From positions 6,696,001 through 6,760,000 of the forward strand of contig NZ_VLKE01000001.1 in NCBI RefSeq assembly GCF_007830265.1: a stretch of DNA of 64,000 nucleotides, written 5' to 3'. This DNA comes from Micromonospora olivasterospora (GTDB lineage: Bacteria > Actinomycetota > Actinomycetes > Mycobacteriales > Micromonosporaceae). Numbering within the stretch: the stretch's first letter is position 1; every line of letters begins with the position of its first letter. The notes under the pieces are model-generated. The model was not told the DNA's origin. It ran no database searches and was given only the letters and a program-made list of their open reading frames with translations. The position numbers and the translations under genes were made by a program. This document shows, one piece after another, positions 8,654-48,062 of this stretch.

Positions 8654-8655
8654 CT

Positions 8656-17208: not shown

Positions 17209-17215
17209 CTAGGCC

Positions 17216-18803: not shown

Positions 18804-18805
18804 GC

Positions 18806-20819: not shown

Positions 20820-20899
20820 TCTTCAGTTTCTGACCTTCGACAAGCCAGAAACCTAGACGGGACACGGCGTGCCCTGTCGATCAGGGCGTCAACCCACCC

Positions 20900-22726: not shown

Positions 22727-22738
22727 CCCGGGCCACCC

Positions 22739-26406: not shown

Positions 26407-26511
26407 CGCTGCCCCATCCGGTACGTGGTTAGCGCCCGGTCGCCCGATCGTCCCGCGGTGCCGAGCCCGTTGCCGTTGCGGCCGACCGCGTCGTGGGTCA
26501 CGGTGTTCTCC

Positions 26512-29275: not shown

Positions 29276-29465
29276 GAGCCTTCCCGTCTTTTCGGATTGG
29301 GTGATGTTCGGTATACGTACGGCCGTACTCATCTCGAACGTAGCTCCCGGCGCGCCGCCCCGTCAACCGCGTCCGGCCTGCGCGGCTCGTCGACCACCTG
29401 GGCGCGTCTGCATCATCGCGGCGACCCGTTGACGAGCCACGAGTTACGTGCAAAGTTCTAGATGG

Positions 29466-29488
29466 GAACGATCGTTCGGCCTGCGAAC
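29466..29488. promoter_or_regulatory. Candidate IclR operator (GTTCG-N5-CGAAC)
   Basis: Two overlapping dyads: the 12-bp perfect palindrome GAACGATCGTTC, and GTTCG with CGAAC spaced by five bases. The site is 190 bases before pcaI and 375 bases before the divergent regulator. It is a candidate binding site for one of the two IclR proteins that flank the pca operon. Confidence 0.45.
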
Positions 29489-29837
29489 GCACTCGAAGCG
29501 CACAGGCATGCAGGGGCGGCACGCACCCGCAGAGCCGCCGCACGCCGAGGCAAGCCGTCGACCGCGTCCGCCGCCAGCCCCGCAACGCCGGGCCACCCGC
29601 GACGCTCCCAGACGCTCACCACCATCCATCGTCACCAAGCGGCCGAAGCTGCCCGAATCGCCAGCCGGCCCTCCCCTGGCGACCGGCTACCCAACCCCAG
29701 GCCGGCCCGCCCACCGCACACGACCTCCGACCAGGCATTTCATCGCGGTCTCGATTCGATTCCCCGCACCAAAATCCCAGACCGAAGCCCTTGACAGCTC
29801 CTCGTCGACACCGTCAGGATCTGGTATCCGCAAGTCA

Positions 29838-29856
29838 ACTTTCATTATCCGAAAGT
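29838..29856. promoter_or_regulatory. Candidate autoregulatory IclR operator
   Basis: A dyad with arms ACTTTC and GAAAGT separated by ATTATCC, ending seven bases before the ATG of the IclR gene. Its A/T-rich centre stands out from the surrounding high-GC sequence and resembles IclR-family operators. A regulator bound here would block transcription or translation start of the cat operon, fitting autorepression (inference). Confidence 0.5.
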
Positions 29857-29862
29857 CAGGCA

Positions 29863-30639
29863 ATGTCGCGAACACCTCCGATCGTTCAGTCAGCCATCAA
29901 GGTTCTCGCTGCCCTCGAGTACCTGTGCCGGGCTCAGCATCCGGTCTCGCTGGAGGAGCTCGCCATGCATCTCGACGCCACGACCGCCACCACGTACCGG
30001 GTGGTCAACACGCTCATCGAAACGGGATACGCCCAGCTGAACGGTTACCGTCAGGGCTATACCGCCACACTCAAAGTGATGGGCCTGGGCGCGCAGATGC
30101 CCGGAGCATTCGACCTACGCGAGGCCGCGCGCAAGGCATTCCGCCCGGTCGGAATGCGATTCGGTGAGACCATCACGGTTGCCAGACTGGACGGGCTGAG
30201 CGCCGTGTTCATCGACAAGATCAGAGCCGGTGACAGCCTGGTCTTCTACTGCGATGTCGGACGTTCGCTCCCCCTGCACATCGGGGCCGCCGCACGGTGC
30301 ATGATGGCTCACCTCACCGACGAGGAATTCGAGGCCCTCCTCGCCAACGACCTCCCTCGACGCACCAACGCCACGATCAACTCGCCCGAGGCGCTCCGGG
30401 CGGCTCGTGCTCAGATCCGTCAGGACGGGTACGCGCTCAGTGTCGACGAAGTCGACGTGGGTGTCAGCGCGATCGCCGTGCCGCTGCTCGGACCGACCAG
30501 GAACCTCCTCGGAGCGGTGGCGATCGCGAACACGTCGAGCGCCTGGTCACCCTCGGACCACGCCGACCGGATCGAAGCGATGATCGCCGCATCGAGACGG
30601 GTCTTCGGCGCCACGACGCCCGGAGCGGCCGCCGTATGA
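29863..30639 (+). CDS. IclR-family transcriptional regulator heading the cat operon
   Basis: A 258-residue IclR protein with the winged helix-turn-helix near the N-terminus (SLEELAMHLDATTATTYRVV) and the effector domain (LPLHIGAAARCMMAHLTDEE, YALSVDEVDVGVSAIAVPLL). The ATG at 29863 is preceded by a weak AGG and a strong dyad that may be its own operator. Its stop overlaps the amidase start by ATGA, so it is the first gene of the long catabolic operon. It differs clearly in sequence from the IclR at 24.7 kb, so the two operons probably answer to different inducers. Confidence 0.87.
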   Translation: MSRTPPIVQSAIKVLAALEYLCRAQHPVSLEELAMHLDATTATTYRVVNTLIETGYAQLNGYRQGYTATLKVMGLGAQMPGAFDLREAARKAFRPVGMRFGETITVARLDGLSAVFIDKIRAGDSLVFYCDVGRSLPLHIGAAARCMMAHLTDEEFEALLANDLPRRTNATINSPEALRAARAQIRQDGYALSVDEVDVGVSAIAVPLLGPTRNLLGAVAIANTSSAWSPSDHADRIEAMIAASRRVFGATTPGAAAV

Positions 30640-31610
30640 CCCACCCACTCGACGACCTGGTCGCCCTCACCCGCTTCGAGCAGACAACGTTCGCCTACCA
30701 GCTGTCTCCCGTGACGCCGACCATCGGCACTGTACGCCCCGGTCATCCGTTCACGCTGATGGCGCAGGATGCCTCAGGCAATCAGCTACGCCGCCACACC
30801 ACACCGGAGGACATCGACCCACACCGCTTGTTCCCGCTAAGTGGACCGGTACGGGTCGAGGGTGTCCCGGCCGGATCGACCGTGGGAATCGGCATCCTGG
30901 ACATCCGTTGCGAGCCGACCGGGCACGTCTGGACTCGCCCCGGACTCGGATTCGAAGGTCCGGACCGGCTGGCGGTCCGATCGCTGCGAATCGAGCCACC
31001 CAGAATCGTTGACCCGAGCGGACTGGAACTCACCTATCAGCCACACACCGGGGCGCTCGGCGTCCTCCCAGCCAGGGAGGTTGCTGGCCGAACCCTCGGT
31101 GAGTACGGCGGCAATCTCGACGTCCCGAACCTCGGTCCAGGCTCGGCGCTATGGGTGACATCGGCAGTGGAAGGCGCCGGCATCTTCGCGGGAGATGTGC
31201 ATGCAGCCATCGGTGACGCGGAAGTCTGTGGCACCGGTGTGGAAACCCCCAGCGAGATCGACCTCGTCGCGCTCACAGCCAACTGGACCGTCGATCATCC
31301 CACCGTCATGACACCGGTGCAGACCTGGCTCATCGGCATCGGCGAGTCGCTCGAAGCCGCGATCGCAGACGTGCTGCCGACCGTCATCGACAGGCTTGCC
31401 GCCGACCGGGGCCTTCTCCGGGACCAGGCTTATCTGCTCGCCTCTCTCCTGCTCGACATCAAGATCTGCCAAGTCGTCAATCCGCTCACCAGCGTCGCCG
31501 TCTCCCTCCGTCAGGGCCTTGATCGCTGCTTGGTACCTGCCCAGGCGCACACGGACTTCACCACCTTTCGTCACCGCTACATCGAAGGGGCACACAATGC
31601 TCACCGCTGA
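30636..31610 (+). CDS. Acetamidase/formamidase family amidohydrolase
   Basis: A 324-residue FmdA/AmdA-family protein. It shows the family's beta-rich pattern: VRPGHPFTLMAQDASG, the SGPVRVEGVPAGSTVGIGIL block, HTGALGVLPAREV, GEYGGNLDVPNLGPGSALW and the conserved EGAGIFAGDVHAAIGDAEVCGTGVE stretch, read here in pieces. Members hydrolyse short amides such as formamide or acetamide to the acid and ammonia. In this operon it may remove an amide or N-acyl group from an aromatic compound before ring oxidation (inference). It overlaps the regulator stop by four bases and the oxygenase start by 14 bases. Confidence 0.85.
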   Translation: MTHPLDDLVALTRFEQTTFAYQLSPVTPTIGTVRPGHPFTLMAQDASGNQLRRHTTPEDIDPHRLFPLSGPVRVEGVPAGSTVGIGILDIRCEPTGHVWTRPGLGFEGPDRLAVRSLRIEPPRIVDPSGLELTYQPHTGALGVLPAREVAGRTLGEYGGNLDVPNLGPGSALWVTSAVEGAGIFAGDVHAAIGDAEVCGTGVETPSEIDLVALTANWTVDHPTVMTPVQTWLIGIGESLEAAIADVLPTVIDRLAADRGLLRDQAYLLASLLLDIKICQVVNPLTSVAVSLRQGLDRCLVPAQAHTDFTTFRHRYIEGAHNAHR

Positions 31611-32853
31611 ACAGAACGAGTTGCTCACCCGAACCAACGCGGGTACCCCGATGGGCGAGCTGATGCGCCGGTACTGGATTCCGATCACCGTAGGGAACCG
31701 TCTGAAGGCCGGTGGCGCGCCGTTGCAGGTCAAGATCCTCGGGGAGTCGCTCGTCGCGTACCGCAGCCCCAACGGCGCAGTAGGTCTCATGGGCGAGTTC
31801 TGTCCGCACCGCAACGCCTCGCTCGCACTGGCCCGCAACGAGGATTGCGGCCTGCGTTGCCTCTACCACGCGTGGCTCATCGCCCCGGACGGCCGCGTCC
31901 TTGAGACCCCGCCTGAGCCGCCGGAGGTCAACCTCTCCGACAAGTTCCGGCACACCGCCTACCCCAGCCGGGAGGCCGGCGGGATCGTGTGGGCGTACAT
32001 GGGCCCCGAAGAGGCGATGCCGGAGTTCCCTGAATGGATCTTCAAGCCGTACGACGAGGCCAACATCTACGTCACCAACGCGTTCCAGGAGTGCAACTGG
32101 CTGCAGGGGGTGGAGGGCGACCTCGACGCGCAACACGGCCCGTACCTGCACTACACCGACGACGAGGCGCACACCCAGGACGGCCTCCAGAACCGGGCCA
32201 ACGAGTACATCTACGACCAGCGTCCGAAGGTGGCCGCGGCCAAGAAGCCGTGGGGACTGCAGACCGTGTTCCGTTACCTGCACAAGGACGGGAAGGCGGC
32301 GACCTACTGGATCCACCCCTTCGTCATGCCCTTCTTCACCTTTTTCGAAAGCAACCTTCTCGACACCGAGGGTGCTCTCATGCACGCGTGGGTTCCCGCC
32401 ACCGACGAGTCGCACTGGGTCTGGTCCGTGCTCTTCTGCGAGGAGGCCATGACCGACGACTACATCGAGTTCGTCGACCGGACGCGCGGCTACGGCATGA
32501 CCGACCCGGAGAACAACTGGCGGGTCACTGCCTTCACCGGCAAGGGCGTCGGCTTCGAGCAGGACCGGGAGGCGATGGCGAGCGGCCGGACCTTCTCCGG
32601 GATCGAGGGCATCCTGCAGCAGGACCTGGCCATCCAGTACAGCATGGGACCGATCTCGGACCGGACCCGCGAGCACCTCACCTCTGGCGACATCGCCATC
32701 GTGCAGCTTCGCAAGTACCTGCTCGACGCCCTGGCCGCCTTCGACAAGGGCGGCCCGGCCCCGGGCACGGAGCCTGGTTCTCAGGACAGCGTCTACTTCG
32801 AGGCGCTGACCTCCACACCCGACCACTCCATGCGTGAACTGGCAAACCGATGA
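31597..32853 (+). CDS. Rieske non-heme iron aromatic oxygenase, alpha subunit
   Basis: A 418-residue oxygenase of the phthalate-dioxygenase-like group. The Rieske [2Fe-2S] ligands are Cys69-His71 (CPHRNASL) and Cys88-His91 (CLYHAW). The mononuclear iron ligands are His180 and His185 in GDLDAQHGPYLHY, and DLDAQH includes the Asp that bridges to the neighbouring subunit's Rieske centre. The ATG at 31597 follows AGGGG. No beta subunit is present, as usual for this group, which pairs with an FMN-ferredoxin reductase like the one at 39.9 kb. Likely role: initial oxygenation giving catechol. The exact substrate is unknown. Confidence 0.9.
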   Translation: MLTAEQNELLTRTNAGTPMGELMRRYWIPITVGNRLKAGGAPLQVKILGESLVAYRSPNGAVGLMGEFCPHRNASLALARNEDCGLRCLYHAWLIAPDGRVLETPPEPPEVNLSDKFRHTAYPSREAGGIVWAYMGPEEAMPEFPEWIFKPYDEANIYVTNAFQECNWLQGVEGDLDAQHGPYLHYTDDEAHTQDGLQNRANEYIYDQRPKVAAAKKPWGLQTVFRYLHKDGKAATYWIHPFVMPFFTFFESNLLDTEGALMHAWVPATDESHWVWSVLFCEEAMTDDYIEFVDRTRGYGMTDPENNWRVTAFTGKGVGFEQDREAMASGRTFSGIEGILQQDLAIQYSMGPISDRTREHLTSGDIAIVQLRKYLLDALAAFDKGGPAPGTEPGSQDSVYFEALTSTPDHSMRELANR

Positions 32854-33473
32854 AGGACCCGGCCGCGTCTCTCCGGCAACCCGAGCTCGACCAGATCCTC
32901 GCGCGGGTCGACCGGCTCGAGAGTGAGTCAGAGATCCGGAGACTCATGGCGAGCTACCAGCGTGTCAACGACGCCGGATCAGCGAGTGGGGTCATGCCGG
33001 CCTGGGGCGATCTGGACGTCCCGGCCGGTGACGGCACAGCCAGGGAGCAGCTGGACACGTTGCGGTCCGAACATGGCTGCACCTGGACGGGCGTCGGTCT
33101 CTCGCCGGAGGGCTGGCCCCACCACGACGGTGTCGCCGTCGATCAGGGCGTCCCACGTCCTGACTATATGCCGCGAATGATGCACTTTCTCACCAACGAA
33201 CGCATCGAGGTACACGACGACCACACCGCGACGGGCAGTTGGTACTGCTGGGAGCCGGCTGTCGTTCAGATCGACGGTGCACCGACGCCGATCCTCATCG
33301 TTGGACGTGCGGACCAGCGGTTCGTCCGAGAGCACGGCCGGTGGTTGCTCGCCCACGTCGATTTCGAAGAGGTCTTCTCGACCACCTTCAACGGGCCTGG
33401 CTGGGTGGCACAACCGCACGTCGCCTACGGTCCGGCCCAGGCAGACGTCGACCGGCCCCGGGAGACGCGATGA
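32850..33473 (+). CDS. NTF2/SnoaL-like protein
   Basis: A 207-residue protein with an N-terminal coiled segment (LARVDRLESESEIRRLMASY) and a C-terminal cone-shaped NTF2-like fold (HFLTNERIEVHDDHTATGSW, then VGRADQRFVREHGRWLLAHV). Such domains occur as isomerases/dehydratases and as small subunits of ring-hydroxylating oxygenases. Because it sits directly after the alpha subunit with an ATGA overlap, an accessory role in the oxygenase reaction or a separate lyase step is plausible. The middle insert (about residues 50-100) is unusual for a minimal NTF2 domain. No catalytic residues can be assigned. Confidence 0.75.
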   Translation: MKDPAASLRQPELDQILARVDRLESESEIRRLMASYQRVNDAGSASGVMPAWGDLDVPAGDGTAREQLDTLRSEHGCTWTGVGLSPEGWPHHDGVAVDQGVPRPDYMPRMMHFLTNERIEVHDDHTATGSWYCWEPAVVQIDGAPTPILIVGRADQRFVREHGRWLLAHVDFEEVFSTTFNGPGWVAQPHVAYGPAQADVDRPRETR

Positions 33474-34498
33474 AGACCGCCATCGGTGCTTCACCTCCCG
33501 GCCAGGTCGCCAGGGCTCACACTCCACGGCGAGTCCGCTCCCACGGGCTACTTCGGTTCGTTTTCCGCCGCGCCGTCGCTGCGGTCCTCACGCTCTGGGG
33601 TCTGTCAATCGCGATCTTCGCGCTCGTCCAACTCCTGCCCGGCGACCTGGGCCGCAGCATCCTCGGTCCGTACGCCAGTGACGCGGAGGTGGCGCGTCTC
33701 AATCAGGACCTCGGCGTCGATCGGCCGTTCTGGGCACGCTACGCGGACTGGCTGAGCGGCTTCGTCACGGGCGACTGGGGGCTTTCCCTGCGGCTCGGGG
33801 CACCCGCCCGTGACGTCATCCTCGATCGTCTCGCCAACTCACTGATCCTCGCCTTCGCCGCCCTGCTCGTCGTGGTCCCACTTGCGGTTGCCGCCGGCGC
33901 CTGGGCGGCTCTCCGCCAGGGCCGTCTGGTCGACCGCGCTGTGTCGATCTGCGGCGTGGCGCTGATGGCGATACCAGAGTTCGTCAGCGGCGTCTTCCTA
34001 CTCGTCATCTTCGGCGTCTACCTGGACTGGTTTCCGGTCCAATCGACCGTACCCACGCTGAGCCCGGTCGACATCATCCGACAACTGACGCTGCCAGTCA
34101 TTCCGCTCTGCTTCATCCTCTTCGGCTACATAGCCCGAATGATGCGCGCCTCGACCATCGATGTCCTCGACCGTCCCTATACCCGAACCGCGCGGCTCAA
34201 GGGATTGAACATGCGCGAAGTCTTCGTCCGCCACGTCTTCCGTAACGCGGTGCTGCCCACCATTACCGTGATCGCTGGTCAAGCCGGCTATCTCATCGGC
34301 GGACTGGTCATCGTCGAGACGCTGTTCACATATCCCGGCATCGGCAACTTCGCCTACGAGTCGGCGCGCTTCAACGACGTCGAGCCGCTGACCACGAGTG
34401 TCGTGATCATCGGTGCCGCGGTGCTGGTGCTCAACCTCCTTGGGGACATCGTGGCCGCGCTGCTCAACCCCCGCGCCATCGTCGGAGGGACGAGGTGA
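33470..34498 (+). CDS. Oligopeptide-type ABC transporter permease (DppB-like)
   Basis: A 342-residue inner-membrane permease with six predicted helices, the N-terminal DppB signature (LLPGDLGRSILGPYASDAEV) and the EAA loop (TARLKGLNMREVFVRHVFRN). It ends with GGLVIVETLFTYPGIGNFAY. It overlaps the NTF2-like gene and the next permease by four bases each. It forms a heterodimer with the DppC-like protein. In this operon it probably imports the catabolic substrate, perhaps a peptide- or amide-like aromatic, since the family also handles opines, nickel and other small amides. Confidence 0.92.
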   Translation: MKTAIGASPPGQVARAHTPRRVRSHGLLRFVFRRAVAAVLTLWGLSIAIFALVQLLPGDLGRSILGPYASDAEVARLNQDLGVDRPFWARYADWLSGFVTGDWGLSLRLGAPARDVILDRLANSLILAFAALLVVVPLAVAAGAWAALRQGRLVDRAVSICGVALMAIPEFVSGVFLLVIFGVYLDWFPVQSTVPTLSPVDIIRQLTLPVIPLCFILFGYIARMMRASTIDVLDRPYTRTARLKGLNMREVFVRHVFRNAVLPTITVIAGQAGYLIGGLVIVETLFTYPGIGNFAYESARFNDVEPLTTSVVIIGAAVLVLNLLGDIVAALLNPRAIVGGTR

Positions 34499-35355
34499 CC
34501 ACTGTCGGCAGACCCCCGAGCCTCGCTCGCGTCTCGGGGCGAGGAACGTTCGCCACTCTGATCAGGACTCCCACAGTTGTGATCGGGGGTTGTGTCGTCC
34601 TGCTATGGGTCGTCGTCGCGATCGCCTGGCCGATGCTCGTCCTCGTCAGCCCCGATCGCACCGATCCGCTCAGCGTGCTCGCCCCGCCGTCCGGCCAGCA
34701 CTGGCTGGGTACCGACCACCTCGGCAGGGACGTGTTCTCACGCGTCCTCGCCGGATCGACCAGCGTCCTGGTCATGGCTCCGTTGGCCACGCTCGTCGGA
34801 CTCGTCCTCGGCACCATCATCGGTGTCACCGCCGGCTACTTTCGGGGCTGGTGGGACATGGTCGTCATGCGGGTGTTGGAGTCGGTGCTCATCGTGCCGG
34901 TGATCCTCATCGCGATGACGGTCCTCGCGCTGTTCGGCAGCTCTCGACTGAATGTCATTCTGACGGTGGGCATCCTGTTCACCCCGCACATCGCCCGCAC
35001 GGTCCGCTCCGCGGTTCTGGTGGAACGGCACCACGAGTACGTCGCGGCCTCCTGGCTGCAGGGGTCGAGCTCGGTATACACGATGTGCGGAGAGATCCTC
35101 CGAAACGTCACCGGCCCCATCATCGTCGAGGCCACCGTTCGGCTCGGCTACGCGATCTTCGTCGCCGCCGGCCTCGCGTTCCTGTCGCTGGGCGTGCAGG
35201 AACCGTCGCCTGATTGGGGACTCACGATCTCGCTCGGCCGCCCGTACGTGCAAAGCGCCCCCTGGATGGTCCTGGCCCCGGCGGCCGCCCTCACCACGCT
35301 CGTCATCGCCGTGAACCTGCTCGCCGACGGAGTGAAGGAAGTGCTTGAACAGTGA
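34495..35355 (+). CDS. Oligopeptide-type ABC transporter permease (DppC-like)
   Basis: A 286-residue permease with the DppC hallmark HWLGTDHLGRDVFSRVLAGS close to the N-terminus, five to six helices, an EAA-type loop (EYVAASWLQGSSSVYTMCGE) and the late LGVQEPSPDWGLTISLGRPY motif. It starts with GTG overlapping the previous stop. It partners the DppB-like permease. Confidence 0.92.
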   Translation: MTTVGRPPSLARVSGRGTFATLIRTPTVVIGGCVVLLWVVVAIAWPMLVLVSPDRTDPLSVLAPPSGQHWLGTDHLGRDVFSRVLAGSTSVLVMAPLATLVGLVLGTIIGVTAGYFRGWWDMVVMRVLESVLIVPVILIAMTVLALFGSSRLNVILTVGILFTPHIARTVRSAVLVERHHEYVAASWLQGSSSVYTMCGEILRNVTGPIIVEATVRLGYAIFVAAGLAFLSLGVQEPSPDWGLTISLGRPYVQSAPWMVLAPAAALTTLVIAVNLLADGVKEVLEQ

Positions 35356-37268
35356 ACGCATCCAGTCCCGTACTCGCGGTCAGCAACCTGAGCGTGGGTT
35401 ATCGTCGCCGCAACCAGATCATCCCAGCGGTTCACGATGTCAGTTTCGCCATCGCACCGGGCGGGCGGATGGGTCTGGTCGGGGAGTCAGGTAGTGGCAA
35501 GACCACCGTAACCATGGCCGTGCTGCGCTACCTACCCCGCAATGCGGTGGTCACCGGCGGGTCGATCGAACTCGACGGCGAGGACCTTCTGTCGATGGGC
35601 GAAGCGCGGCTCGGCCGGCTGCGCGGCAGGAAGATCGCCGCGGTCTACCAGGACCCCGGCTCGAGCCTCAACCCGACGATGACCATCGGCCGCCAGGTCG
35701 GTGAGGTGTTCCGTAAGCACTTCGACATGGACCGGCACGAGGCCGATCGCGCCACTGCGGAGGCGCTCGGCCGGGTCCAGCTCCCGTCGCCCGAGCGGAT
35801 CGCCACCCGGTACCCGCACCAGCTCTCCGGCGGCCAGCAGCAGCGGGTGATGATCGCCATGGCACTCAGCACGAATCCGGCATTGCTGCTGCTGGACGAG
35901 CCCACCACAGGGCTCGATGCCACGGTTGAGGCGGCGGTCATCGAGCTCGTCGAGGAACTCGCGAAGGAGCTCGGGACCGCGCTGCTGATGGTCAGCCACA
36001 ACCTTCCCCTCGTCCGGTACCTGTGCGACGAGACGATCGTGATGAAGAGTGGACGCCTGGTCGAGGCAGGCCCGACCGGACAGCTCCTCAGCACACCCCG
36101 ACACCCGTACACGCAGGCACTCGTCGCATGTGTCCCCACCCGGGCTCACCGGAAGCTCAGCAACGCACTGCGCGCCGAGGGGCAGCCCGAACGCCCGAAC
36201 GGCTCGCGCCGGGCGGCTCAGCTCGAACGAGCGCTGGCCGCGAGCGACCCGGTCCTGGAGATCACGGACCTCGTCAAGGACTACGAGACCCCGGACGGCA
36301 TGGTTCACGCTGTTCGCGGCGTCTCCCTGACGATGCGCAGGGGCGAGGTGCTCGCCGTGGTCGGCGAGTCCGGCAGCGGAAAGTCCACTCTCGCTCGGTG
36401 TGTGGTGGGCTTGGAGTCCTTTACCCACGGGTCGGTGGTCATCGACGGCAAGTCGATGCCCGCGAACCACCGTCAGCGCGACCGGTCGGCAGGTACCCAG
36501 CGCCCCACTCTGGTTTTCCAGAACCCGGACACGTCGCTCAACCCGACCAAGACCGCGCGTGCGGTGCTGCGCCGTTCGCTCCGCCTGGCCGGCACAAACA
36601 CGTCCGCCGTCGAGAAGATCGCGAGCGAGACCGAGTTGCGTCCGGAGCACCTGGAAAGCAAGACCCGACGGCTCTCCGGTGGGCTCAAGCAGCGGGTGGC
36701 CATCGCACGAGCCTCGGTTGGCGAACCGAGCATCGTCGTCTGCGATGAGCCGGTCTCCGCGCTCGACGTTTCCGTCCAGGCCGCCATCCTGAACCTGCTC
36801 GCGCACCGACAGGCCGAAACGGGCGTGTCCTACCTGTTCATCTCGCACGATCTCGACGTCGTTCACTACATCGCCGACTCCGTAGCCGTCATGTACATGG
36901 GTGACATCGTCGAGCGGGGCCCGGCGCAGGCCGTGTTCAGCGGGCCGCACCACCCCTACACCGCCGCCCTGATGTCGGCCGCGACCCCGATCGGCGACGA
37001 GACCCGACGCGAGCGCATCAAGCTCATGGGCCCCACCCCCAGCGCCTACGAGCACATCGACGGCTGCGTCTTTGCCAGCCGCTGCCCGGTGACCTTGGCC
37101 GACGGCCGATGCACACGTCACGTACCGCCGTGGCGAGAAGGTCCCGGCGGCAAGTCCTACAAGTGCCATCGCACCCCCCAGGAACTGCATGACCTTCTCG
37201 GCCTTTCCCGGAGCACGCTGACGCCGGCGGCGGCCGAACTCGTCGCAAAGGAGCATCAATATGAATAG
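35352..37268 (+). CDS. Fused double ABC ATPase of an oligopeptide-type transporter (DppD-DppF fusion)
   Basis: A 638-residue protein carrying two complete nucleotide-binding domains. The first has Walker A GESGSGKTT, signature LSGGQQQRV and Walker B LLLLDEPTTGLD. The second, after about residue 295, has GESGSGKST, LSGGLKQRV and IVVCDEPVSALD. It ends with the oligopeptide-transporter C-terminal Cys region (CVFASRCPVTLADGRC and CHR). In many bacteria these are two genes; here the fusion drives one transporter. GTG start overlaps the preceding stop, and the stop lies inside the start region of the binding protein. Confidence 0.93.
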   Translation: MNASSPVLAVSNLSVGYRRRNQIIPAVHDVSFAIAPGGRMGLVGESGSGKTTVTMAVLRYLPRNAVVTGGSIELDGEDLLSMGEARLGRLRGRKIAAVYQDPGSSLNPTMTIGRQVGEVFRKHFDMDRHEADRATAEALGRVQLPSPERIATRYPHQLSGGQQQRVMIAMALSTNPALLLLDEPTTGLDATVEAAVIELVEELAKELGTALLMVSHNLPLVRYLCDETIVMKSGRLVEAGPTGQLLSTPRHPYTQALVACVPTRAHRKLSNALRAEGQPERPNGSRRAAQLERALAASDPVLEITDLVKDYETPDGMVHAVRGVSLTMRRGEVLAVVGESGSGKSTLARCVVGLESFTHGSVVIDGKSMPANHRQRDRSAGTQRPTLVFQNPDTSLNPTKTARAVLRRSLRLAGTNTSAVEKIASETELRPEHLESKTRRLSGGLKQRVAIARASVGEPSIVVCDEPVSALDVSVQAAILNLLAHRQAETGVSYLFISHDLDVVHYIADSVAVMYMGDIVERGPAQAVFSGPHHPYTAALMSAATPIGDETRRERIKLMGPTPSAYEHIDGCVFASRCPVTLADGRCTRHVPPWREGPGGKSYKCHRTPQELHDLLGLSRSTLTPAAAELVAKEHQYE

Positions 37269-38880
37269 GTCATTTCCCTCGCCGTTCGCGGGCGCCGCGA
37301 TCGACCGCCGCAGGTTCCTCCAGCTCGGCGCGCTGCTCGGTGCCGGCGCGACGATCGCGGCCTGCGCTCCCGGTGGATCGGCCGGCACCAGCGCGGCGTC
37401 CGCGCCCACCAAGGCGGTGTCCGGCGGAAAGATGACCGTGGGTTTGCCCACGCCCAGCGGCCCGGTTGATCCGGTAACCATGAACGACATCGGCGCCGTC
37501 GACACGGTACTCGTCGCCGCAGAATATCTGACCTTCCCCCGAGCCGACGGAAGCCTGGAGGGACGTCTGGCCACCACATGGACGGCCGACGACGCATCCA
37601 CCTGGACCTTCACGCTCCGTCAGGGTGTCAAGTTCCACGACGGGAGCGAACTGACCGCCGCCGACGTCGTGGCGACGTTCGACCGGGTCACCGATCCCGA
37701 CGGCGGGTCGGCGGGACTACAGAGCTTCGCAGGCATTCTTGCCCCCGGCGGGACGACCGCCGTCGACGACCACACGGTGCGGTTCAAGCTGGACCGGCCC
37801 TACGCCGACTTCCCCTACCTGGTCTCGGCGTACGCCTACAACACCGCCATTCTGCCCGCGTCCTACCGGACTGGCGACTTCGTCAAGGGCGGGTTCGGCA
37901 CCGGTCCCTACATCCTCACCAGGTTCATCCCCGGAAGCGGCGCGGTGTTCCGGCGGAACGAGAACTACTGGCTCGATGAGGCCGCCTACCTCGACACCCT
38001 GGAGGTGAAGTACTTCGCCGACACCAACGCCCAGGTGCTAGCCGTGCAGAGCGCCTCGGTCGACCTCGTTCCGTCGGTCGAGCCGGCCACGCTGCGCACG
38101 CTCAAGCGGTCGACGAACATCGTCCTACAGGAAGCGGCCTCATCGTCGTTTCAGTCACTGCAGATGCGCACCGACGTCGCCCCGTTCAACGACAAGAGGG
38201 TACGCCAGGCGCTGGCGCTCTGCCTGGACCGCACCAAGCTCATCGCCGGCCTGATCGACGGCAAAGCGTCCCTCGGGAACGATCATCTCTTCGCACCCAC
38301 CTTCGAGTCCGCCGAGAGCGTCGCCCAAGCCGTCGAACAGCGCAACCGCGACATCGCCGCAGCCAAGCGGCTGCTCAGTGAGGCCGGCCACCCCAACGGT
38401 CTCGACGTCACCCTGACCACGACCCGAATCTTCGAGTGCGTCGACCACGCCACCCTCGTCAAGGACATGGCCGCCGACGCCGGATTCAGGATCACGCTCG
38501 ACATCATGACGCCCGAGGAGTACTTCGCGTCCGGCGACAACTCGCCATGGCTCACCGTCCCCCTCGGCATCACCAACTGGGGATCACGCGGCTGCGCGTC
38601 CCAAGTCCTCGAGGCCACCGTAGCCACCACCGCCCCGTACAACTCCGCGCACTTCTCGAATGCCGAGTTGGACAACCTGATCAAGAAGTACGACGCCGAG
38701 CCAGACGCGAAAGCGCGCGCCGGCATCGCCGCCAGCATCGCCGAGCTCCTCCACGAGGAGGTGCCGATCATCGTCTCCTACTTCAAGAGTCAGGTACGAG
38801 TCGCCACATCCCGTGTCGGTGGCATGCCCGCGGGTCCGGGCGACTTCCCGGACTTCCAAAAGGTCTTCGTCTCCGCCTAG
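37261..38880 (+). CDS. ABC transporter substrate-binding lipoprotein (SBP family 5)
   Basis: A 539-residue extracytoplasmic solute-binding protein. It begins with a twin-arginine-type signal (DRRRFLQLGALLG) ending in a lipobox at TIAAC (Cys35), so it is probably a Tat-exported lipoprotein. Family 5 features are the DASTWTFTLRQGVKFHDGSE motif and FGTGPYILTRFIPGSGAVFR. It delivers the substrate to the two permeases. Family 5 binders span peptides, opines and aromatic amides, so the ligand is not predictable from sequence. It overlaps the ATPase gene by eight bases. Confidence 0.92.
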   Translation: MNRSFPSPFAGAAIDRRRFLQLGALLGAGATIAACAPGGSAGTSAASAPTKAVSGGKMTVGLPTPSGPVDPVTMNDIGAVDTVLVAAEYLTFPRADGSLEGRLATTWTADDASTWTFTLRQGVKFHDGSELTAADVVATFDRVTDPDGGSAGLQSFAGILAPGGTTAVDDHTVRFKLDRPYADFPYLVSAYAYNTAILPASYRTGDFVKGGFGTGPYILTRFIPGSGAVFRRNENYWLDEAAYLDTLEVKYFADTNAQVLAVQSASVDLVPSVEPATLRTLKRSTNIVLQEAASSSFQSLQMRTDVAPFNDKRVRQALALCLDRTKLIAGLIDGKASLGNDHLFAPTFESAESVAQAVEQRNRDIAAAKRLLSEAGHPNGLDVTLTTTRIFECVDHATLVKDMAADAGFRITLDIMTPEEYFASGDNSPWLTVPLGITNWGSRGCASQVLEATVATTAPYNSAHFSNAELDNLIKKYDAEPDAKARAGIAASIAELLHEEVPIIVSYFKSQVRVATSRVGGMPAGPGDFPDFQKVFVSA

Positions 38881-38942
38881 TCCTGGATTCGCCCGCGCAG
38901 CGGTGCGGTCGGGCGTCCATCTCCCGAAAGGTCTCCACGACA

Positions 38943-39908
38943 GTGAAGTTCATCCAGTTCAACGGCTCCGGCGGCAATGAGATCGTGTCGCTCCAGGAGG
39001 CGCCGGATCCCCGTCCAAGCCGGGGTCAGGTGCTGATCGCTGCCCGCTACGCCGGCGTGAACCCCGCGGACGTGTTGCAGCGCAACGGCGGCTACCCCGT
39101 ACCCGCGGACGCTCCTCAGGACATCCCCGGACTGGAGGTCTCCGGGACGGTCGTCGAGGTTGGCCCAGGCGTACGCAAGTGGAAGATCGGCGACAGCGTG
39201 CAGGGCATCGTCGGCGGTGGCGGCCTCGCCAACCGAGTCATCGCCGACGCCGAGCACCTGTGGGCCGCCCCCGACGGAGTCGACGAGCAGTCACGCGCCG
39301 CGCTCCCCGAAGCGGTCGTCACCGCCTTCGACGCGCTCAACCGGGCCCGCGCCCAACTGGGCGACGTCGTCCTGATCCGAGGTATCAACGGGGCCGTCGG
39401 TCTCGCCGCGCACCAGATCTCGACGGCGCTCGGTGCCACCGCGATCGGAATCGGCCGCTCTCAGGCCGCTCTGGATGCTCTCGCGGCCCAGGGGATCACG
39501 GCTGTCACCCAGGGCGACGTCGCCGCCGCCGTGGAACCACTGGGCGGAGCGTCCGTGGTCATCGAACTCGTCGGCGGCGCCTATGTCGCAGAAGATCTGA
39601 AGCTCGTCCGGGTGGGCGGACGGATCGTGGTGGTCAGCACCGCCGCGGGTGCGACCCCGGAGGTGCCTCTCAACCTGCTGATGGCCAAGCGTGCCGATCT
39701 CAGCGGGACCGTCCTTCGGGGCAGGCCCAATGCCGAGAAGGCCGTGCTCGTCGCCAATCTCGAGCAACGACTCGGCCGCCTCCTCGCGGCGGGAGGCATC
39801 ACCATACCCATCGACCGGGTGTTTCCGGCGGCAGACGCGACGGCGGCATTCGACCGCCTCAGCACTCCAGGCAAGGTCGGGAAGGTCCTGCTCGACTTCG
39901 GCGCCTGA
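38943..39908 (+). CDS. Zinc-free MDR oxidoreductase (quinone oxidoreductase-like)
   Basis: A 321-residue medium-chain reductase. The N-terminal GroES-like domain contains RYAGVNPADVLQRNGGYPVP and GLEVSGTVVEVGPGVRKWKI; the Rossmann domain has VLIRGINGAVGLAAHQISTA, which binds NADP(H). The structural and catalytic zinc Cys/His of alcohol dehydrogenases are absent, as in quinone or enone reductases. GTG start at 38943. It lies 62 bases after the binding protein. It might reduce a quinone formed by catechol auto-oxidation or act on the upstream substrate; both are guesses. Confidence 0.82.
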   Translation: MKFIQFNGSGGNEIVSLQEAPDPRPSRGQVLIAARYAGVNPADVLQRNGGYPVPADAPQDIPGLEVSGTVVEVGPGVRKWKIGDSVQGIVGGGGLANRVIADAEHLWAAPDGVDEQSRAALPEAVVTAFDALNRARAQLGDVVLIRGINGAVGLAAHQISTALGATAIGIGRSQAALDALAAQGITAVTQGDVAAAVEPLGGASVVIELVGGAYVAEDLKLVRVGGRIVVVSTAAGATPEVPLNLLMAKRADLSGTVLRGRPNAEKAVLVANLEQRLGRLLAAGGITIPIDRVFPAADATAAFDRLSTPGKVGKVLLDFGA

Positions 39909-39939
39909 CCGGGCCGAGCTGATGAGGAGTGGAGCGAGG

Positions 39940-40917
39940 ATGTCCACCACGAACGGCACCGTTGCGGTGCGGGTACGAAGCGCCACCTGGTTGGCCGACC
40001 GGGTCATGGGACTCGACCTGGTGTCCTTGGATGGCACCCCACTCCCCCTGTGGGAGGCCGGGGCACACATCGATCTGATCCTGCCGTCCGGGAAGATCAG
40101 ACAGTACTCCCTCCACGGTAGCCATGAGGACCGTCGCGTCTATCAGGTCGCCGTACTCCTCGAAGCCGATGGGCGCGGAGGATCGAAAGAGGTTCACGAG
40201 ACGGCTTTGGTGGGCCGCGAAATCGCCATTCGCGGCCCACGCAACCACTTCGCCCTGGTCGACGCCGCCGATTACCGCTTTGTAGCTGGCGGGATCGGGA
40301 TCACACCCATCCTGTCCATGATCCGGCAGGTCGCCGGCCAGGGACGACGCTGGTCGCTCATGTATGGCGGCCGCAGCCGCGGCAGCATGGCCTTCCTCGA
40401 CGAACTGCAAAAGATCCCTGGTGGGGACGTCACGGTCGTGCCCCAGGACGAAGCTGGCCTACTCGACCTGGCGGCGCTGCACGCCGGCGCCACCCCCGAG
40501 ACAGCCTTCTACTGCTGCGGCCCGGAGGGCCTCCTGCGCGCCCTCACTGCCACCCTCGAAGCCGTCGGGCGGGCAGACTCCCTGCACGTGGAGCGCTTCA
40601 GCGCCCCTCCGGCTCCTGCCCCTGCCGGCACCGCTGGTGGGCATGTCAACACCGAGTTCACCGTCGAGCTGGCCGCATCGGGAATCTCCGTGACTGTCCC
40701 GCCCGACCGGTCGGTACTTGAAGTCGTCTCCGAAGTTGCTCCCACGGTCCTTTCGTCTTGCGCGGAAGGCTACTGCGGAACCTGCGAAACACGCGTGATA
40801 TCAGGGATCCCAGACCATCGCGACACGCTGCTAACTCCAGCCGACAAGGCCACCAACGAAACCATGATGATCTGCGTCAGCCGATGTCTCGGATCGAAGC
40901 TGGTGCTCGACCTTTGA
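39940..40917 (+). CDS. Rieske-oxygenase reductase (phthalate dioxygenase reductase/VanB type)
   Basis: A 325-residue reductase with three modules. An FMN-binding ferredoxin-reductase beta barrel (ILPSGKIRQYSLHGS) comes first, then an NAD(P)H domain (FVAGGIGITPILSMI and YCCGPEGLL). Last is a C-terminal plant-type [2Fe-2S] ferredoxin (SSCAEGYCGTCETRV plus a distal Cys in MICVSRC). It passes electrons from NADH to the Rieske oxygenase encoded 7 kb upstream in the same operon. The ATG at 39940 is preceded by GAGCGAGG. This module order defines the class IA partner of single-subunit-type Rieske oxygenases. Confidence 0.92.
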   Translation: MSTTNGTVAVRVRSATWLADRVMGLDLVSLDGTPLPLWEAGAHIDLILPSGKIRQYSLHGSHEDRRVYQVAVLLEADGRGGSKEVHETALVGREIAIRGPRNHFALVDAADYRFVAGGIGITPILSMIRQVAGQGRRWSLMYGGRSRGSMAFLDELQKIPGGDVTVVPQDEAGLLDLAALHAGATPETAFYCCGPEGLLRALTATLEAVGRADSLHVERFSAPPAPAPAGTAGGHVNTEFTVELAASGISVTVPPDRSVLEVVSEVAPTVLSSCAEGYCGTCETRVISGIPDHRDTLLTPADKATNETMMICVSRCLGSKLVLDL

Positions 40918-40990
40918 GCACCGCTGGCCTGCCCGGCTGCTCCGCGACCCGCAAGACCACTCCGTTCAGACTCCCGAACAGAACTCCCAG

Positions 40991-42094
40991 ATGAAAATAA
41001 CCAAGGTTGAAGCGATCCCCTTCGCCATCCCGTACGTCAAGCCACTGCGATTCGCCAGCGGCGAGGTCCGCGTCGCCGAGCATGTACTCGTGCGCGTGCA
41101 CACCGAGGACGGCGTCGTCGGCATCGCCGAGGCACCACCGCGACCATTCACCTACGGCGAGACCCAGGCCAGCATCATCGCCGTTGTCAGTCAGATCCTC
41201 GCCCCACAAATCATCGGCCTGTCCCTGCTCGAACGCGAGACCGTGATGGCCCGGCTCGCTCGCACCGTCGGCAACCCGACCGCCAAAGCCGCGATCGACA
41301 TGGCCATCTGGGATGCCCTCGGCCGGACCCTGCGGGTACGGGTCACCGACCTGCTCGGCGGCTACACCGACCGGATGCGGGTCTCCCACATGCTCGGTTT
41401 CGACGAGCCGGCGGCAATGGTCGCCGAGGCCGCACGGATACGCGACATCTATGGGATCACGACCTTCAAGGTCAAAGTCGGCCGCCGGCCGGTCACCCTC
41501 GACACCGCAGTGGTTCGGGCACTACGCGAGGGCCTCGGGGAGGCGGTCGAATTGTACGTCGACGGCAACCGCGGCTGGACCGCCGCGGAATCTCTCCGCG
41601 CGATGAAGGAGATGGCCGACCTTGGCCTCATCTTCGCCGAGGAACTGTGCCCGGCCGATGATGTACTCGGCCGGCGGTGGCTGGTCAGCCACCTGGACGT
41701 GCCGTTCATCGCCGACGAGTCCGCCGTGACAGCCGCTGACGTCACCCGCGAGATACTGGGCGGTTCGGCGACGGCGATCAGCATCAAGTGCGCGCGCAAC
41801 GGTTTCACCAATGCGCAACGGGTTCACCACCTCGCAGAAGGCCTCGGCCTCGCCGCGGTCATCGGCAACCAGATCGACGGTCAACTCGGAACCGCCTGCG
41901 CGGTCGCGTTCGGCGCCGCGTACCGGCTCACCACTCAGTTCGCCGGCGAGCTCTCCAACTTCCTCGACATGGACGACGACCTGCTCGCCGAGCCACTCGA
42001 CATCCACGACGGCGAACTACTGGTTCCCGCCGGCAATGGACTGGGCGTCGAGATCGACCCCGACAAGCTAACCCACTACCGGACCGACCACTAG
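40991..42094 (+). CDS. catB: Muconate cycloisomerase
   Basis: A 367-residue enolase-superfamily enzyme lactonising cis,cis-muconate to muconolactone. The base pair is Lys160-x-Lys162 in FKVKVG. Metal ligands are Asp191 (VDGNRGW), Glu217 (FAEEL) and Asp242 (IADES), with Lys266 in SIKCARNG on the other face. These are the residues of the muconate-lactonising subgroup. Its position directly before catA and catC supports catB over other MLE-like racemases. Confidence 0.9.
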   Translation: MKITKVEAIPFAIPYVKPLRFASGEVRVAEHVLVRVHTEDGVVGIAEAPPRPFTYGETQASIIAVVSQILAPQIIGLSLLERETVMARLARTVGNPTAKAAIDMAIWDALGRTLRVRVTDLLGGYTDRMRVSHMLGFDEPAAMVAEAARIRDIYGITTFKVKVGRRPVTLDTAVVRALREGLGEAVELYVDGNRGWTAAESLRAMKEMADLGLIFAEELCPADDVLGRRWLVSHLDVPFIADESAVTAADVTREILGGSATAISIKCARNGFTNAQRVHHLAEGLGLAAVIGNQIDGQLGTACAVAFGAAYRLTTQFAGELSNFLDMDDDLLAEPLDIHDGELLVPAGNGLGVEIDPDKLTHYRTDH

Positions 42095-42117
42095 GACAAG
42101 TAGCAGGAGGAGCACGA

Positions 42118-42984
42118 ATGCCCACCACCGAACAGGCGGCCCAGACCACGACGGCCGCCGCCTCGGGAGCCTCCGCAACGGAGCGCTTCCACACCGACAA
42201 GTCGCCGTTCGAGGCAGTCAAGGATACCCCCAAGGAGCGGGTCGACCTGCTGGCCCGCGAACTGCTCTACGCCGCGCAGGAGACCATCCGCAAGCACAAG
42301 GTCACCTACGACGAGTTCAACGCACTCAAGGCATGGCTGATCCAGGTCGGCAGGGACGGCGAGTGGCCTCTGTTCCTCGACGTCTGGCTCGAGCATGTCG
42401 TTGAGGATGTCGCCACCGCGCACCGGGACGGCAGCAAGGGCAGCATCGAGGGTCCGTACTACGTGCCGAACGCCCCCGAGCAGGGTGCCGATGGTGCCGT
42501 GCCGATGCGCGCGGACGAGCGCGGCACACCGCTACTCTGGGAAGGCACGGTCACCTCCACCGACGGAACCGCCCTCGTCGGCGCGACTGTCGAATTGTGG
42601 CAGGCCGATGCTGACGGCCTCTACTCACAGTTCGCGCCGGGCATCCCCGAGTGGAACCTGCGCGGCACCTTCACCGTCGGCACCGACGGCAGGTTCCGGA
42701 TTCGCACCATCGAGCCGGCACCGTACCAGATTCCCACGGACGGCTCGTGCGGCAAGCTGATCGCCGCCGCCGGCTGGCACGCCTGGCGCCCGGCCCATCT
42801 GCACGTGAAGGTCTCCGCGCCTGGCCACGAGTTGCTCACCACGCAGCTCTACTTTCCCGGCGATCCGCACAACGACGACGACATCGCCAACGCCGTCAAG
42901 CCGGAGCTGATGCTTGAGCCGGTCGACCGGGCCGACAGTGGACGCACGGTCGAATACGGTTTCGTTCTCGACCCTGCCAAATGA
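42118..42984 (+). CDS. catA: Catechol 1,2-dioxygenase
   Basis: A 288-residue intradiol dioxygenase cleaving catechol to cis,cis-muconate with Fe(III). The N-terminal helical linker domain for dimerisation is present (about residues 30-105). The iron ligands are Tyr115 (EGPYYVP), Tyr203 (APYQIP), His227 and His229 (RPAHLHVKV). A strong AGGAGGAG precedes the ATG. The gene order catB-catA-catC is common in actinomycetes. Confidence 0.95.
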   Translation: MPTTEQAAQTTTAAASGASATERFHTDKSPFEAVKDTPKERVDLLARELLYAAQETIRKHKVTYDEFNALKAWLIQVGRDGEWPLFLDVWLEHVVEDVATAHRDGSKGSIEGPYYVPNAPEQGADGAVPMRADERGTPLLWEGTVTSTDGTALVGATVELWQADADGLYSQFAPGIPEWNLRGTFTVGTDGRFRIRTIEPAPYQIPTDGSCGKLIAAAGWHAWRPAHLHVKVSAPGHELLTTQLYFPGDPHNDDDIANAVKPELMLEPVDRADSGRTVEYGFVLDPAK

Positions 42985-43280
42985 TGCTGTTCCACGTACG
43001 GATGGACGTCCGGCTCCCCCACGACCTAGCCCCCGAGGCCCGGGCCGAAATCGTGGCCAGGGAGAAGGCGTACTCCCAAGAGCTGCAGCGAACCGGTAAG
43101 TGGGCTCACCTCTGGAGAATCGTCGGCAAACACTCGAACTACTCGATCTTTGACGTGGAAAGCAACGACGAACTCCACACCATCCTGTCCGGGCTTCCCC
43201 TCTTCCCATACATGGACATCCACGTCACGCCACTCGCCACCCACCCCTCGTACGTCGCGGCCGCAGACCACGAGAGGTAA
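42981..43280 (+). CDS. catC: Muconolactone delta-isomerase
   Basis: A 99-residue small decameric enzyme that isomerises muconolactone to beta-ketoadipate enol-lactone, the substrate of PcaD. Family landmarks: MLFHVRMDVRLPHDL at the N-terminus, REKAYSQELQRTGKWAHLWR, NYSIFDVESNDELHTILSGL and FPYMDIHVTPLATHPS. The start overlaps the catA stop by ATGA. It is the last gene of the operon. Confidence 0.95.
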   Translation: MMLFHVRMDVRLPHDLAPEARAEIVAREKAYSQELQRTGKWAHLWRIVGKHSNYSIFDVESNDELHTILSGLPLFPYMDIHVTPLATHPSYVAAADHER

Positions 43281-43549
43281 GGGCCGGGTCCGGCAGTCCG
43301 GGCGCGGTCTACGGAATCGGGCGGCCACCACCGCAAGGTCGCGCCGACATCGGTCGTGACCAGCACCGTCGCGGCGGACGCCAGCACCAACCAGCGCAGC
43401 CACTTTCGGCGGCGGCAAAGCGCGGTCAGCGTTGCCGACGTGCGTTCAATGCCGCCAGGTGATGCGCCGTCTGCTGTTCACTACCGGCGGCTGGCTGCCG
43501 CCGGACGTTCCGTGAGCACCCGCCCCTGGTCCTGCAGCACTGCCAGCCT
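43281..43549. other. Downstream region of the cat operon, no gene
   Basis: No supported coding sequence between catC and the strong hairpin at 43.55 kb. Open frames here have low-complexity high-GC translations and no ribosome binding sites. Confidence 0.4.
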
Positions 43550-43588
43550 CGCACCCTCGCCTGATCTACATGATCAGGCGAGGGTGCG
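43550..43588. terminator. Strong hairpin, candidate terminator of the cat operon
   Basis: A 17-bp perfect stem (CGCACCCTCGCCTGATC at 43550-43566 with its complement at 43572-43588) around a five-base loop TACAT. There is no T-run, but actinobacterial terminators often lack one. It lies 270 bases after catC, so it may end the ~13.4-kb operon transcript. It could also be the end of a decayed mobile element. Confidence 0.5.
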
Positions 43589-43789
43589 AACGGCGGCGGC
43601 AAGGCCGACCCCCGCGCCCCGTGAACGCCGAGATCAGCCGTCCTCGCACTGCACGGCATCGTCGGCGTGCAGCAAACCACCTACGACCTCGGCGCCCCAT
43701 GCATCGGCGCGTAATTCCACCTGGCCACCGACAAGGCCCGGGGTGCATGGCGACATGCCATAAGCGGGGACGCGGACGCATGGGACACC

Positions 43790-46884: not shown

Positions 46885-46888
46885 CTAG

Positions 46889-47170
46889 GGAAATATATCG
46901 TAGATCCCGACTTTGAGCCAGACATGCAACTTTTTATCGAAGCGCTCGAAATTCTGCGAGACATTCACCGCTTTTGGACGAAGATAGAAATTGATCTCGG
47001 CACTTTCGAGACACACGGCGAGGTATCCGTGGACGACGTGACTCCGGGCACAATCCTACTGCTACAGATGTGCATAGATGCGCATGCAGAAGGACTCAAA
47101 AATGACAGCGCCGACCAGGACCGCGTTAAAATATTTGCGCTGTGTCTCAGCCGCCAGCACGCTCCATCAG
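46889..47170 (+). pseudogene. Unrecognised low-GC gene fragment
   Basis: A frame open from the IS701 edge reads KYIVDPDFEPDMQLFIEALE, ILRDIHRFWTKIEIDLGTFE and VDDVTPGTILLLQMCIDAHA. Composition is acidic and hydrophobic-patterned, unlike a shadow frame, and base content is clearly less G/C-rich than its neighbours. The N-terminus is missing at the IS boundary. I do not recognise the family. The low G/C suggests a horizontally acquired gene that was cut by the IS (inference). Confidence 0.4.
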
Positions 47171-47550: not shown

Positions 47551-47603
47551 GACAACAAGCCGATGATCCGGGTGCTGGCGCTGTCCGAGGAAAAAGCTCA
47601 GGA

Positions 47604-47948: not shown

Positions 47949-48062
47949 TCGCGGCCTCTGCGGTACTGGTTGGGAGGCACCGCCCCAGGTCTTGCCTCGC
48001 AAAACGGGTCCGCTCGCCTACCTCGCCCAGACACCCGCCACCGGCACCCGAGTTCGGTCAGA

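Follow-up and report, generated by a model that had tools for sequence, protein, structure and literature searches.

A 13-gene operon of Micromonospora olivasterospora may represent an acquired module that converts aromatics of the N-aryl-amide or oxindole type to catechol without an indole-type flavin monooxygenase, an interpretation that we put forward tentatively, at a little under an even chance. The operon occupies positions 29863-43280 (plus strand) of a 64,000-nucleotide stretch of contig NZ_VLKE01000001.1, hereafter the window. Its gene set represents a rare form of a functional combination (amidohydrolase, Rieske oxygenase and NTF2/SnoaL protein) that recurs elsewhere, built from different parts. 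The genes and the region preceding them are as follows:

29333-29862 (no strand): divergent intergenic region, presumed promoter/operator region, read from the sequence
29863-30639 (+): IclR-family regulator (PF01614 and PF09339 above cut-off)
30636-31610 (+): FmdA/AmdA-family amidase, 324 aa (PF03069, 75.4 bits against a curated cut-off of 27)
31597-32853 (+): Rieske oxygenase of the phthalate-dioxygenase family, LigXa_C (PF00355 and PF19301)
32850-33473 (+): SnoaL_4 (NTF2-fold) protein, possibly an enzyme (Pfam)
33470-34498 (+): permease 1 of an ATP-binding cassette (ABC) importer, Dpp/Opp/Nik type (PF00528, PF19300)
34495-35355 (+): permease 2 of the ABC importer (Opp2C/NikC/DppC-type models, below cut-off)
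35352-37268 (+): ATPase of the ABC importer, two fused domains, 638 aa (DppD/DppF-type models)
37261-38880 (+): solute-binding protein, family 5 (PF00496, 256.9 bits)
38943-39908 (+): MDR/PIG3-type NAD(P)H quinone oxidoreductase-like protein, GTG start (PF08240/PF00107)
39940-40917 (+): flavin/[2Fe-2S] reductase of the phthalate-dioxygenase-reductase type (PF00111, PF00175)
40991-42094 (+): catB, muconate cycloisomerase family (PF13378/PF02746; TIGR02534, 206.4 bits, below the cut-off of 334.95)
42118-42984 (+): catA, catechol 1,2-dioxygenase (TIGR02438, 471.4 bits, over the cut-off of 404.4)
42981-43280 (+): catC, muconolactone isomerase (TIGR03221, 154.9 bits, over the cut-off of 130.6)

The extent of the operon and its thirteen genes on one strand, as given in a preliminary description of the window, were borne out when checked in the sequence, and Pfam and NCBIfam assignments agree with the gene labels used there. 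Overlaps of 4-14 bases, said to run over most of the operon, are indeed present at 8 of the 12 junctions: overlaps at the first seven, from IclR to the solute-binding protein, measure 4, 14, 4, 4, 4, 4 and 8 bases, and that of catA and catC 4. Gaps of 23-73 bases separate the genes at the other four. Since packing is this tight and the plus strand showed no terminator-like sites in a crude scan of 29300-43600 (three are on the minus strand, with 5.3 expected), a single transcript of all 13 genes is plausible. Promoter-like sites were likewise missing from this interval by crude consensus scan (1.1 expected from shuffles); a TTGACA at 29791-29796 in the divergent intergenic region was spotted by eye, although the consensus scan reports no promoter-like site.

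The same gene order was sought in other genomes, a comparison to which the preliminary description had pointed. Amidase, Rieske and SnoaL genes appear to be linked in Saccharopolyspora pogona and in a metagenome contig, because searches with each of the three proteins returned contigs of equal size (9,436,548 and 8,654 bases, respectively), a sign of linkage and not its proof. Amidase and SnoaL matches agree in contig size on two further contigs, of 9,170 and 5,151 bases. In the protein database, relatives of the Rieske oxygenase comprise proteins of S. pogona and one metagenome contig (85% identity), Dactylosporangium (64%) and another metagenome contig (61%), the next ones being at about 50%. 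Among the matches listed, amidase relatives at 55-57% occur in S. pogona and three metagenome contigs, and SnoaL relatives at 52-58% in S. pogona and four metagenome contigs. Listed amidase relatives at 51-57% were also found in Planosporangium, Pseudonocardia kujensis and Nocardioides, on contigs that match no Rieske or SnoaL contig in size. Partners missing from the SnoaL search mean little, since this search misses known relatives (the M. deserti homologue described below is unlisted).

Scanning of genome contigs with the Rieske alignment detected four loci, the best at 49% identity. Three loci share this value, one in M. deserti and two in Microtetraspora, and all three contain a SnoaL_4 homologue (about 41%) near the Rieske gene. 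Two of them, M. deserti and one of the Microtetraspora loci, have complete catBAC (55-74%); the contig of the second Microtetraspora locus breaks off within catB (86% across 42 residues). The window's catB is 73-74% identical to the catBs of loci L016 and L017. No other operon gene was found at the fourth locus (38% Rieske identity). In a Rieske tree of the 40 best matches, the window and 12 loci, the window falls into a 16-row clade (support 100/99) together with the M. deserti and Microtetraspora loci. A protein of an Arthrobacter plasmid (L037), with no cat genes nearby, forms a long branch in a poorly supported part of this clade.

The M. deserti locus also encodes a Smoa_sbd flavoprotein of the styrene/indole-monooxygenase type, a flavin reductase and an SDR protein. 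Best PDB matches of this flavoprotein reach 1e-59 and 3e-57, while named styrene monooxygenases score 9e-31 or weaker; its PDB relatives 9lrq and 7z4x are presumably indole monooxygenases. (The 9lrq entry, whose chain is similar to styrene/indole monooxygenases, carries the name 'Alanine-phosphoribitol ligase' and is perhaps mislabelled.) The whole genome of M. olivasterospora gave no match to Smoa_sbd, the family of group E indole monooxygenases, nor did 14 control genomes; the M. deserti genome, serving as positive control, did. If the pathway is indole-like, the substrate would thus probably enter already oxidised.

The preliminary description had called the combination unusual. It is rare but not isolated, being a version of a functional set that recurs around a different family of Rieske oxygenases. 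Nine of 17 plasmid records of this oxygenase group were read, eight of them annotated and with incomplete gene tables. Four of these eight neighbourhoods (L025, L028, L030 and L045) combine an amidohydrolase, a Rieske oxygenase and an NTF2/SnoaL protein; the other four are without the amidohydrolase and NTF2 set, L047 having instead an ester cyclase and an isochorismatase-family hydrolase. The first, from an Acinetobacter of pig manure (L025), came to light when plasmid records were searched for relatives of the M. deserti flavoprotein. Its genes are ordered FmdA, Rieske oxygenase, hypothetical protein, NTF2, styrene/indole-type monooxygenase, flavin reductase, SDR, Rieske ferredoxin and reductase. 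As in the window, an FmdA-family amidase adjoins a Rieske oxygenase and a SnoaL_4 protein. In contrast to the window operon, which has neither, the cluster contains a Ring_hydroxyl_A oxygenase, here with a Rieske ferredoxin, and a styrene/indole-type flavin monooxygenase along with flavin reductase and SDR; the 13 kb read contain neither an ABC importer nor cat genes. In the accessible part of PMC11434297, the table of A. piscicola p38 genes upregulated by skatole lists 1684 (ring-hydroxylating dioxygenase), 1687 (styrene-type monooxygenase) and 1690 (ferredoxin); gene 1684 also stands in the indole table, and the word amidase does not occur in that part. Since the spacing in L025 (oxygenase, monooxygenase at +3, ferredoxin at +6) is identical to that of the p38 genes listed there, L025 is probably the same kind of cluster as the skatole-induced block.

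The other three neighbourhoods are more varied. Novosphingobium (L028) has the order FmdA, Rieske oxygenase, hypothetical protein, NTF2 and ferredoxin. Azospirillum ramasamyi (L030) carries a ferredoxin-reductase-type flavoprotein, Rieske oxygenase, cupins, NTF2, Rieske ferredoxin, asparaginase and ABC importer as well as CoA-transferase genes, pcaF, pcaD, catC, muconate cycloisomerase and intradiol dioxygenase, and Paroceanicella profunda (L045) has Rieske oxygenase, cupins, NTF2, ferredoxin and asparaginase. Both resemble the window in amidohydrolase, Rieske oxygenase and NTF2, L030 also in its ABC importer, cat genes, pcaF, pcaD and CoA-transferases, yet they differ in having asparaginase instead of FmdA, different ABC genes and an oxygenase of a different family. 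Around the window's own oxygenase family, 11 of 45 plasmid records (H4-H11, H14, H17 and H18; gene tables incomplete) were read: an NTF2 gene is present in three neighbourhoods, all of one Rhodococcus group, and annotated FmdA, asparaginase or cat genes in none, with one carbon-nitrogen hydrolase about 4 kb away. The Rhodococcus plasmids L027, L035 and L041 share a phthalate-family Rieske oxygenase, NTF2, FAD oxidoreductase, ferredoxin, PIG-L and aldolase, which has the look of a gallate-type pathway.

Characterised indole pathways show related arrangements. According to the accessible parts of PMC8383072, PMC11676955 and PMC7225977, iac clusters join an amidase (IacH), a ring-hydroxylating dioxygenase and the SnoaL-fold IacI to pca/cat genes, and in Enterobacter soli LF7 the iac cluster for conversion of indole-3-acetate (IAA) to catechol is organized as iacHABICDEFG-mfs-pcaIJD-catBCA. 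This system and the window have in common that an amidase, a dioxygenase together with its reductase, a SnoaL-fold protein and pca/cat genes are clustered, a likeness at the level of protein families. In contrast to iac, the window has a LigXa_C-type Rieske oxygenase, an FmdA-type amidase, an ABC importer and an IclR regulator; whereas iac encodes Rieske alpha and beta subunits (IacC/IacD), the window's alpha subunit is of the PF19301 type and has no beta subunit by Pfam. Neither an IacA-type (acyl-CoA-dehydrogenase-like) flavin monooxygenase nor a flavin reductase or SDR was found by Pfam among the operon proteins, the only part of the genome in which they were sought. The operon families likewise include no counterpart of IifA, the dienelactone-hydrolase-type protein of the iif indole cluster. 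The iad cluster of Variovorax, which leads from IAA to anthranilate, comprises a Rieske oxygenase, the amidase-like IadI and the ABC solute-binding IadK2 (PMC12633357, accessible part). Similarity between its alpha/beta oxygenase IadDE and the oxygenase of the window is confined to some 70 residues of the Rieske domain (9o71, E 6.7e-4), and the product of the iad cluster is anthranilate, unlike the catechol proposed here. The Rhodococcus skatole cluster has a three-component oxygenase, and the words amidase, Rieske and catechol are absent from the accessible text of its description (PMC13101512).

The D-H-H iron site of the Rieske oxygenase (D177, H180 and H185) is present in all 12 aligned proteins (alignment A1, including the 11 best of 120 listed matches, 4278 in all), and its best PDB match is 7fjl (E 2.2e-76). 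Amidase residues G186, D187, H189, E196, T200 and E203 are invariant across 18 aligned proteins (alignment A3, including 17 of 120 listed amidases, 232 in all). This gene is the only member of the FmdA family found in the 7.07 Mb genome. The reductase matches two P450 fusion proteins in PDB (5e-69 and 6e-59), followed by 2pia, phthalate dioxygenase reductase (1.6e-51).

As for the SnoaL protein, its alignment (A2) was built from 5 of 8 non-self matches and three loci, three longer proteins at 30-33% being dropped. Pfam assigns it to SnoaL_4 only, with no match to PF00866, the Rieske beta subunit; no beta subunit occurs among 50 listed structural matches of its model either, an absence that excludes nothing. 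The SnoaL_4 proteins of L025, L028 and L030 belong to the same Pfam family and match its profile with E values of 1.3e-4, 1.7e-7 and 2.1e-7, the first at a probability of 53%. An analogy to IifA was rejected, as the profile comparison with a DLH-family protein of L026 gave E 0.48, and only other SnoaL_4 proteins were therefore kept as relatives. That the protein is an enzyme is not proved by the fold search: its structure model is middling, with a mean pLDDT of 64.6 and values below 50 at 69 of its 207 residues, and the scores of CaMKII hub domains and designed proteins lie no more than about 2 Z units from that of the top-ranking enzyme.

We propose the following mechanism. The IclR regulator would control the operon, and the ABC importer would bring in a nitrogen-bearing aromatic of N-aryl-amide or oxindole type, whose amide or lactam would be hydrolysed by the FmdA amidase. 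The Rieske oxygenase, fed by the phthalate-dioxygenase-type reductase, would then dihydroxylate the amino-aromatic thus freed, at the carbon that bears the nitrogen. The SnoaL_4 protein, which we read as a putative lyase with an Asp-His pair, may help to expel nitrogen and side chain, and catechol would form without a classical cis-diol dehydrogenase. CatA, CatB, CatC, PcaD, PcaIJ and PcaF would carry catechol to central metabolism.

A nitrogen-bearing aromatic is favoured because an amidohydrolase beside Rieske oxygenase and NTF2/SnoaL recurs elsewhere. By analogy, the parallel clusters favour nitrogen borne on the ring, as in oxindole-type lactams, N-acyl anilines or N-acyl anthranilates. 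The amide-bearing aromatic substrate suggested in the preliminary description gains from this recurrence but not from the closest loci: all three at 49% identity have Rieske, SnoaL_4 and cat genes without a match to the window's amidase, when probed with this amidase only and with no systematic search for other amidohydrolase families. That the amidase was not found at these sister loci is what argues most strongly against amide cleavage as the core step.

Downstream of catechol, the operon is complemented by four genes on the opposite strand, pcaIJFD (25624-29332), divergent from it:

25624-26406 (-): pcaD, 3-oxoadipate enol-lactonase (TIGR02427, 299.5 bits, over the cut-off of 255.85)
26512-27693 (-): pcaF-like thiolase (TIGR02430, 474.8 bits, below the cut-off of 597)
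27690-28460 (-): pcaJ-like CoA-transferase subunit (weak TIGR02428, 41.5 bits, below the cut-off of 243.55)
28457-29332 (-): pcaI-like CoA-transferase subunit (weak TIGR02429, 35.7 bits, below the cut-off of 128.5)

All families of the catechol branch of the beta-ketoadipate pathway (catA, catB, catC, pcaD, CoA-transferase and thiolase) are therewith present. The complete lower pathway of the preliminary description holds at family level only, since catB, pcaF, pcaI and pcaJ score below curated cut-offs and catA, catC and pcaD alone pass them.

Mobile-element genes are found on both sides of this region:

15881-23697 (no strand): left flank, transposases (DDE_5, IS4 and ISL3 types), two integrases and one reverse transcriptase (Pfam)
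45398-49598 (-): right flank, transposase genes at 45398-46804 and 48063-49598 (Pfam)

A PF00775 search of the 7.07 Mb genome matched no intradiol dioxygenase other than catA. No orthologue at E 1e-88 or better was found in other genomes, in overlapping samples of 354, 397, 396 and 296 genomes that include the window's own (the first was searched at 1e-90); at 1e-60, 5 of 150 other genomes have a match, the best at 42% identity. For the amidase, none of 385 other genomes has an orthologue at 1e-35. The sole catA, the flanking mobile-element genes and the lack of orthologues in samples of relatives' genomes suggest that the catechol pathway arrived as an acquired island. The two integrase genes of the left flank are of phage type and adjoin each other (20505-22446, plus strand), followed by the reverse-transcriptase gene at 22741-23697 (minus strand).

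The importer, composed of a family 5 solute-binding protein, two BPD permeases and DppD/F-type ATPases, is of the peptide/nickel/opine type. Its fused ATPase scores 487.9 bits with NF008453, over the cut-off of 408. The family to which the binding protein belongs gives a weak hint of a peptide-like or conjugated ligand. The N-terminus of this protein reads RR...AAC, which we take to be of lipoprotein type. The nearest NCBIfam model of the regulator is PcaR/PcaU/PobR, with a score below cut-off, and the MDR protein also stays below cut-off with TIGR02824 (254.2 bits against 296.8).

The steps might also follow in reverse order. Attack of the Rieske oxygenase on an aniline-type compound with its N-formyl or N-acetyl group still in place would then yield catechol together with a small amide, formamide or acetamide, from which hydrolysis by FmdA would supply carbon and nitrogen. 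Such an order would account for the amidase not found in the sister loci, and solved relatives of the amidase are mostly named acetamidase or formamidase (2ii1, its best PDB match, is an acetamidase). Nevertheless, identity to three distant family members in the alignment is just 26-31%, and the amidase is far from reaching the formamidase equivalog NF045496 (50.8 bits against a cut-off of 500). The position of the amidase gene beside oxygenase genes in the iac and Acinetobacter clusters is compatible with either order. On balance, we consider the reverse order unlikely.

It is similarly doubtful that the operon serves to import a simple primary aryl amide (for example anthranilamide or benzamide) and hydrolyse it to the acid, from which the Rieske enzyme would form catechol. 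The gene set permits this, and anthranilate is converted to catechol in one oxygenase step. Benzoate and salicylate, however, need a diol dehydrogenase or another hydroxylase, not present in the operon, and the parallel clusters point to indole-derived substrates. Phthalate 4,5-dioxygenase binds phthalate through S182, R207 and R244 (PMC12445078, accessible part); in the alignment with the window's oxygenase these correspond to G181, a gap and H240, so that none of the three side chains is kept, although H240, which aligns with R244, could bind a carboxylate. Benzamide and salicylamide, proposed among the test compounds in the preliminary description, fit less well since the operon has no benzoate- or salicylate-type hydroxylase. 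A route from benzamide via benzoate was rejected: the operon is without a benzoate-type dioxygenase, and the only other PF00848 match lies elsewhere in the genome.

A further, more novel reading can be formulated, in which the phthalate-family Rieske oxygenase, a SnoaL-fold lyase and the FmdA amidase would act on ready-made oxindoles or N-acyl anilines taken up through the peptide-type importer, such as auxin catabolites in oxidised form or conjugates of these with amino acids. We regard this reading as rather improbable. If true, it would be an oxindole/auxin-catabolite pathway without an indole-type flavin monooxygenase, assembled independently of the iac, iad and skatole clusters; no such catechol-forming route was found in the literature searched. 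Independently of this reading, the operon and its parallels suggest a general plan, amidohydrolase, Rieske oxygenase and SnoaL feeding catechol, for which different families of oxygenases and amidohydrolases have been recruited more than once. In the accessible part of the IAA paper (PMC7225977), the step from the 3-hydroxyoxindole DOAA to catechol is left unresolved. Because the upstream oxidation steps are missing, the window would offer a cleaner system for testing the roles of amidase, Rieske oxygenase and SnoaL, and the binding protein a direct route to substrate identity.

The operon could alternatively consist of two adjoining units, an amide/peptide uptake unit from IclR to the solute-binding protein and a separate reductase/catechol unit, brought together by chance in a mobile-element-rich region. 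All four gaps (62, 31, 73 and 23 bases) do lie 3' of the solute-binding protein gene, and transposase genes flank the region. Against this, the Rieske and SnoaL genes belong to the tightly overlapping part while the operon's only oxygenase reductase is encoded beyond the first gaps, the crude scan shows no plus-strand terminator-like site in between, and amidase, Rieske and SnoaL seem linked in other lineages. We hold a division into two units to be very unlikely.

Least probable is a phthalate-family operon for an aromatic di-acid or ether with an incidental catechol branch: the oxygenase and reductase families are those of phthalate 4,5-dioxygenase and its reductase, but neither the phthalate-binding residues nor the phthalate-pathway genes are kept, the operon families include no decarboxylase and no Gfo/Idh-type dehydrogenase, and cat genes were seen close to the Rieske gene in the nearest relatives of the window but in none of the 11 annotated plasmid neighbourhoods of other phthalate-type relatives. 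Phthalate degradation itself was rejected on account of the substrate residues and missing partner genes.

Several further genes of the window deserve mention. A 780-residue open reading frame (ORF) at 1801-4143 (minus strand) combines, by Pfam, a P-type (E1-E2) ATPase with a hemerythrin domain at the C-terminus. At 5972-10443 (minus strand), a molybdopterin oxidoreductase with a ferredoxin-like N-terminus lies beside a NuoE/NuoF-like fused protein, perhaps forming a complex of formate-dehydrogenase or hydrogenase type. A 2181-residue ORF at 51025-57570 (minus strand), with C-terminal Ntox44 and a weak RHS-repeat match (Pfam), is likely a polymorphic toxin, and is adjoined by a Laminin_G_3 protein at 57627-60401 (minus strand).

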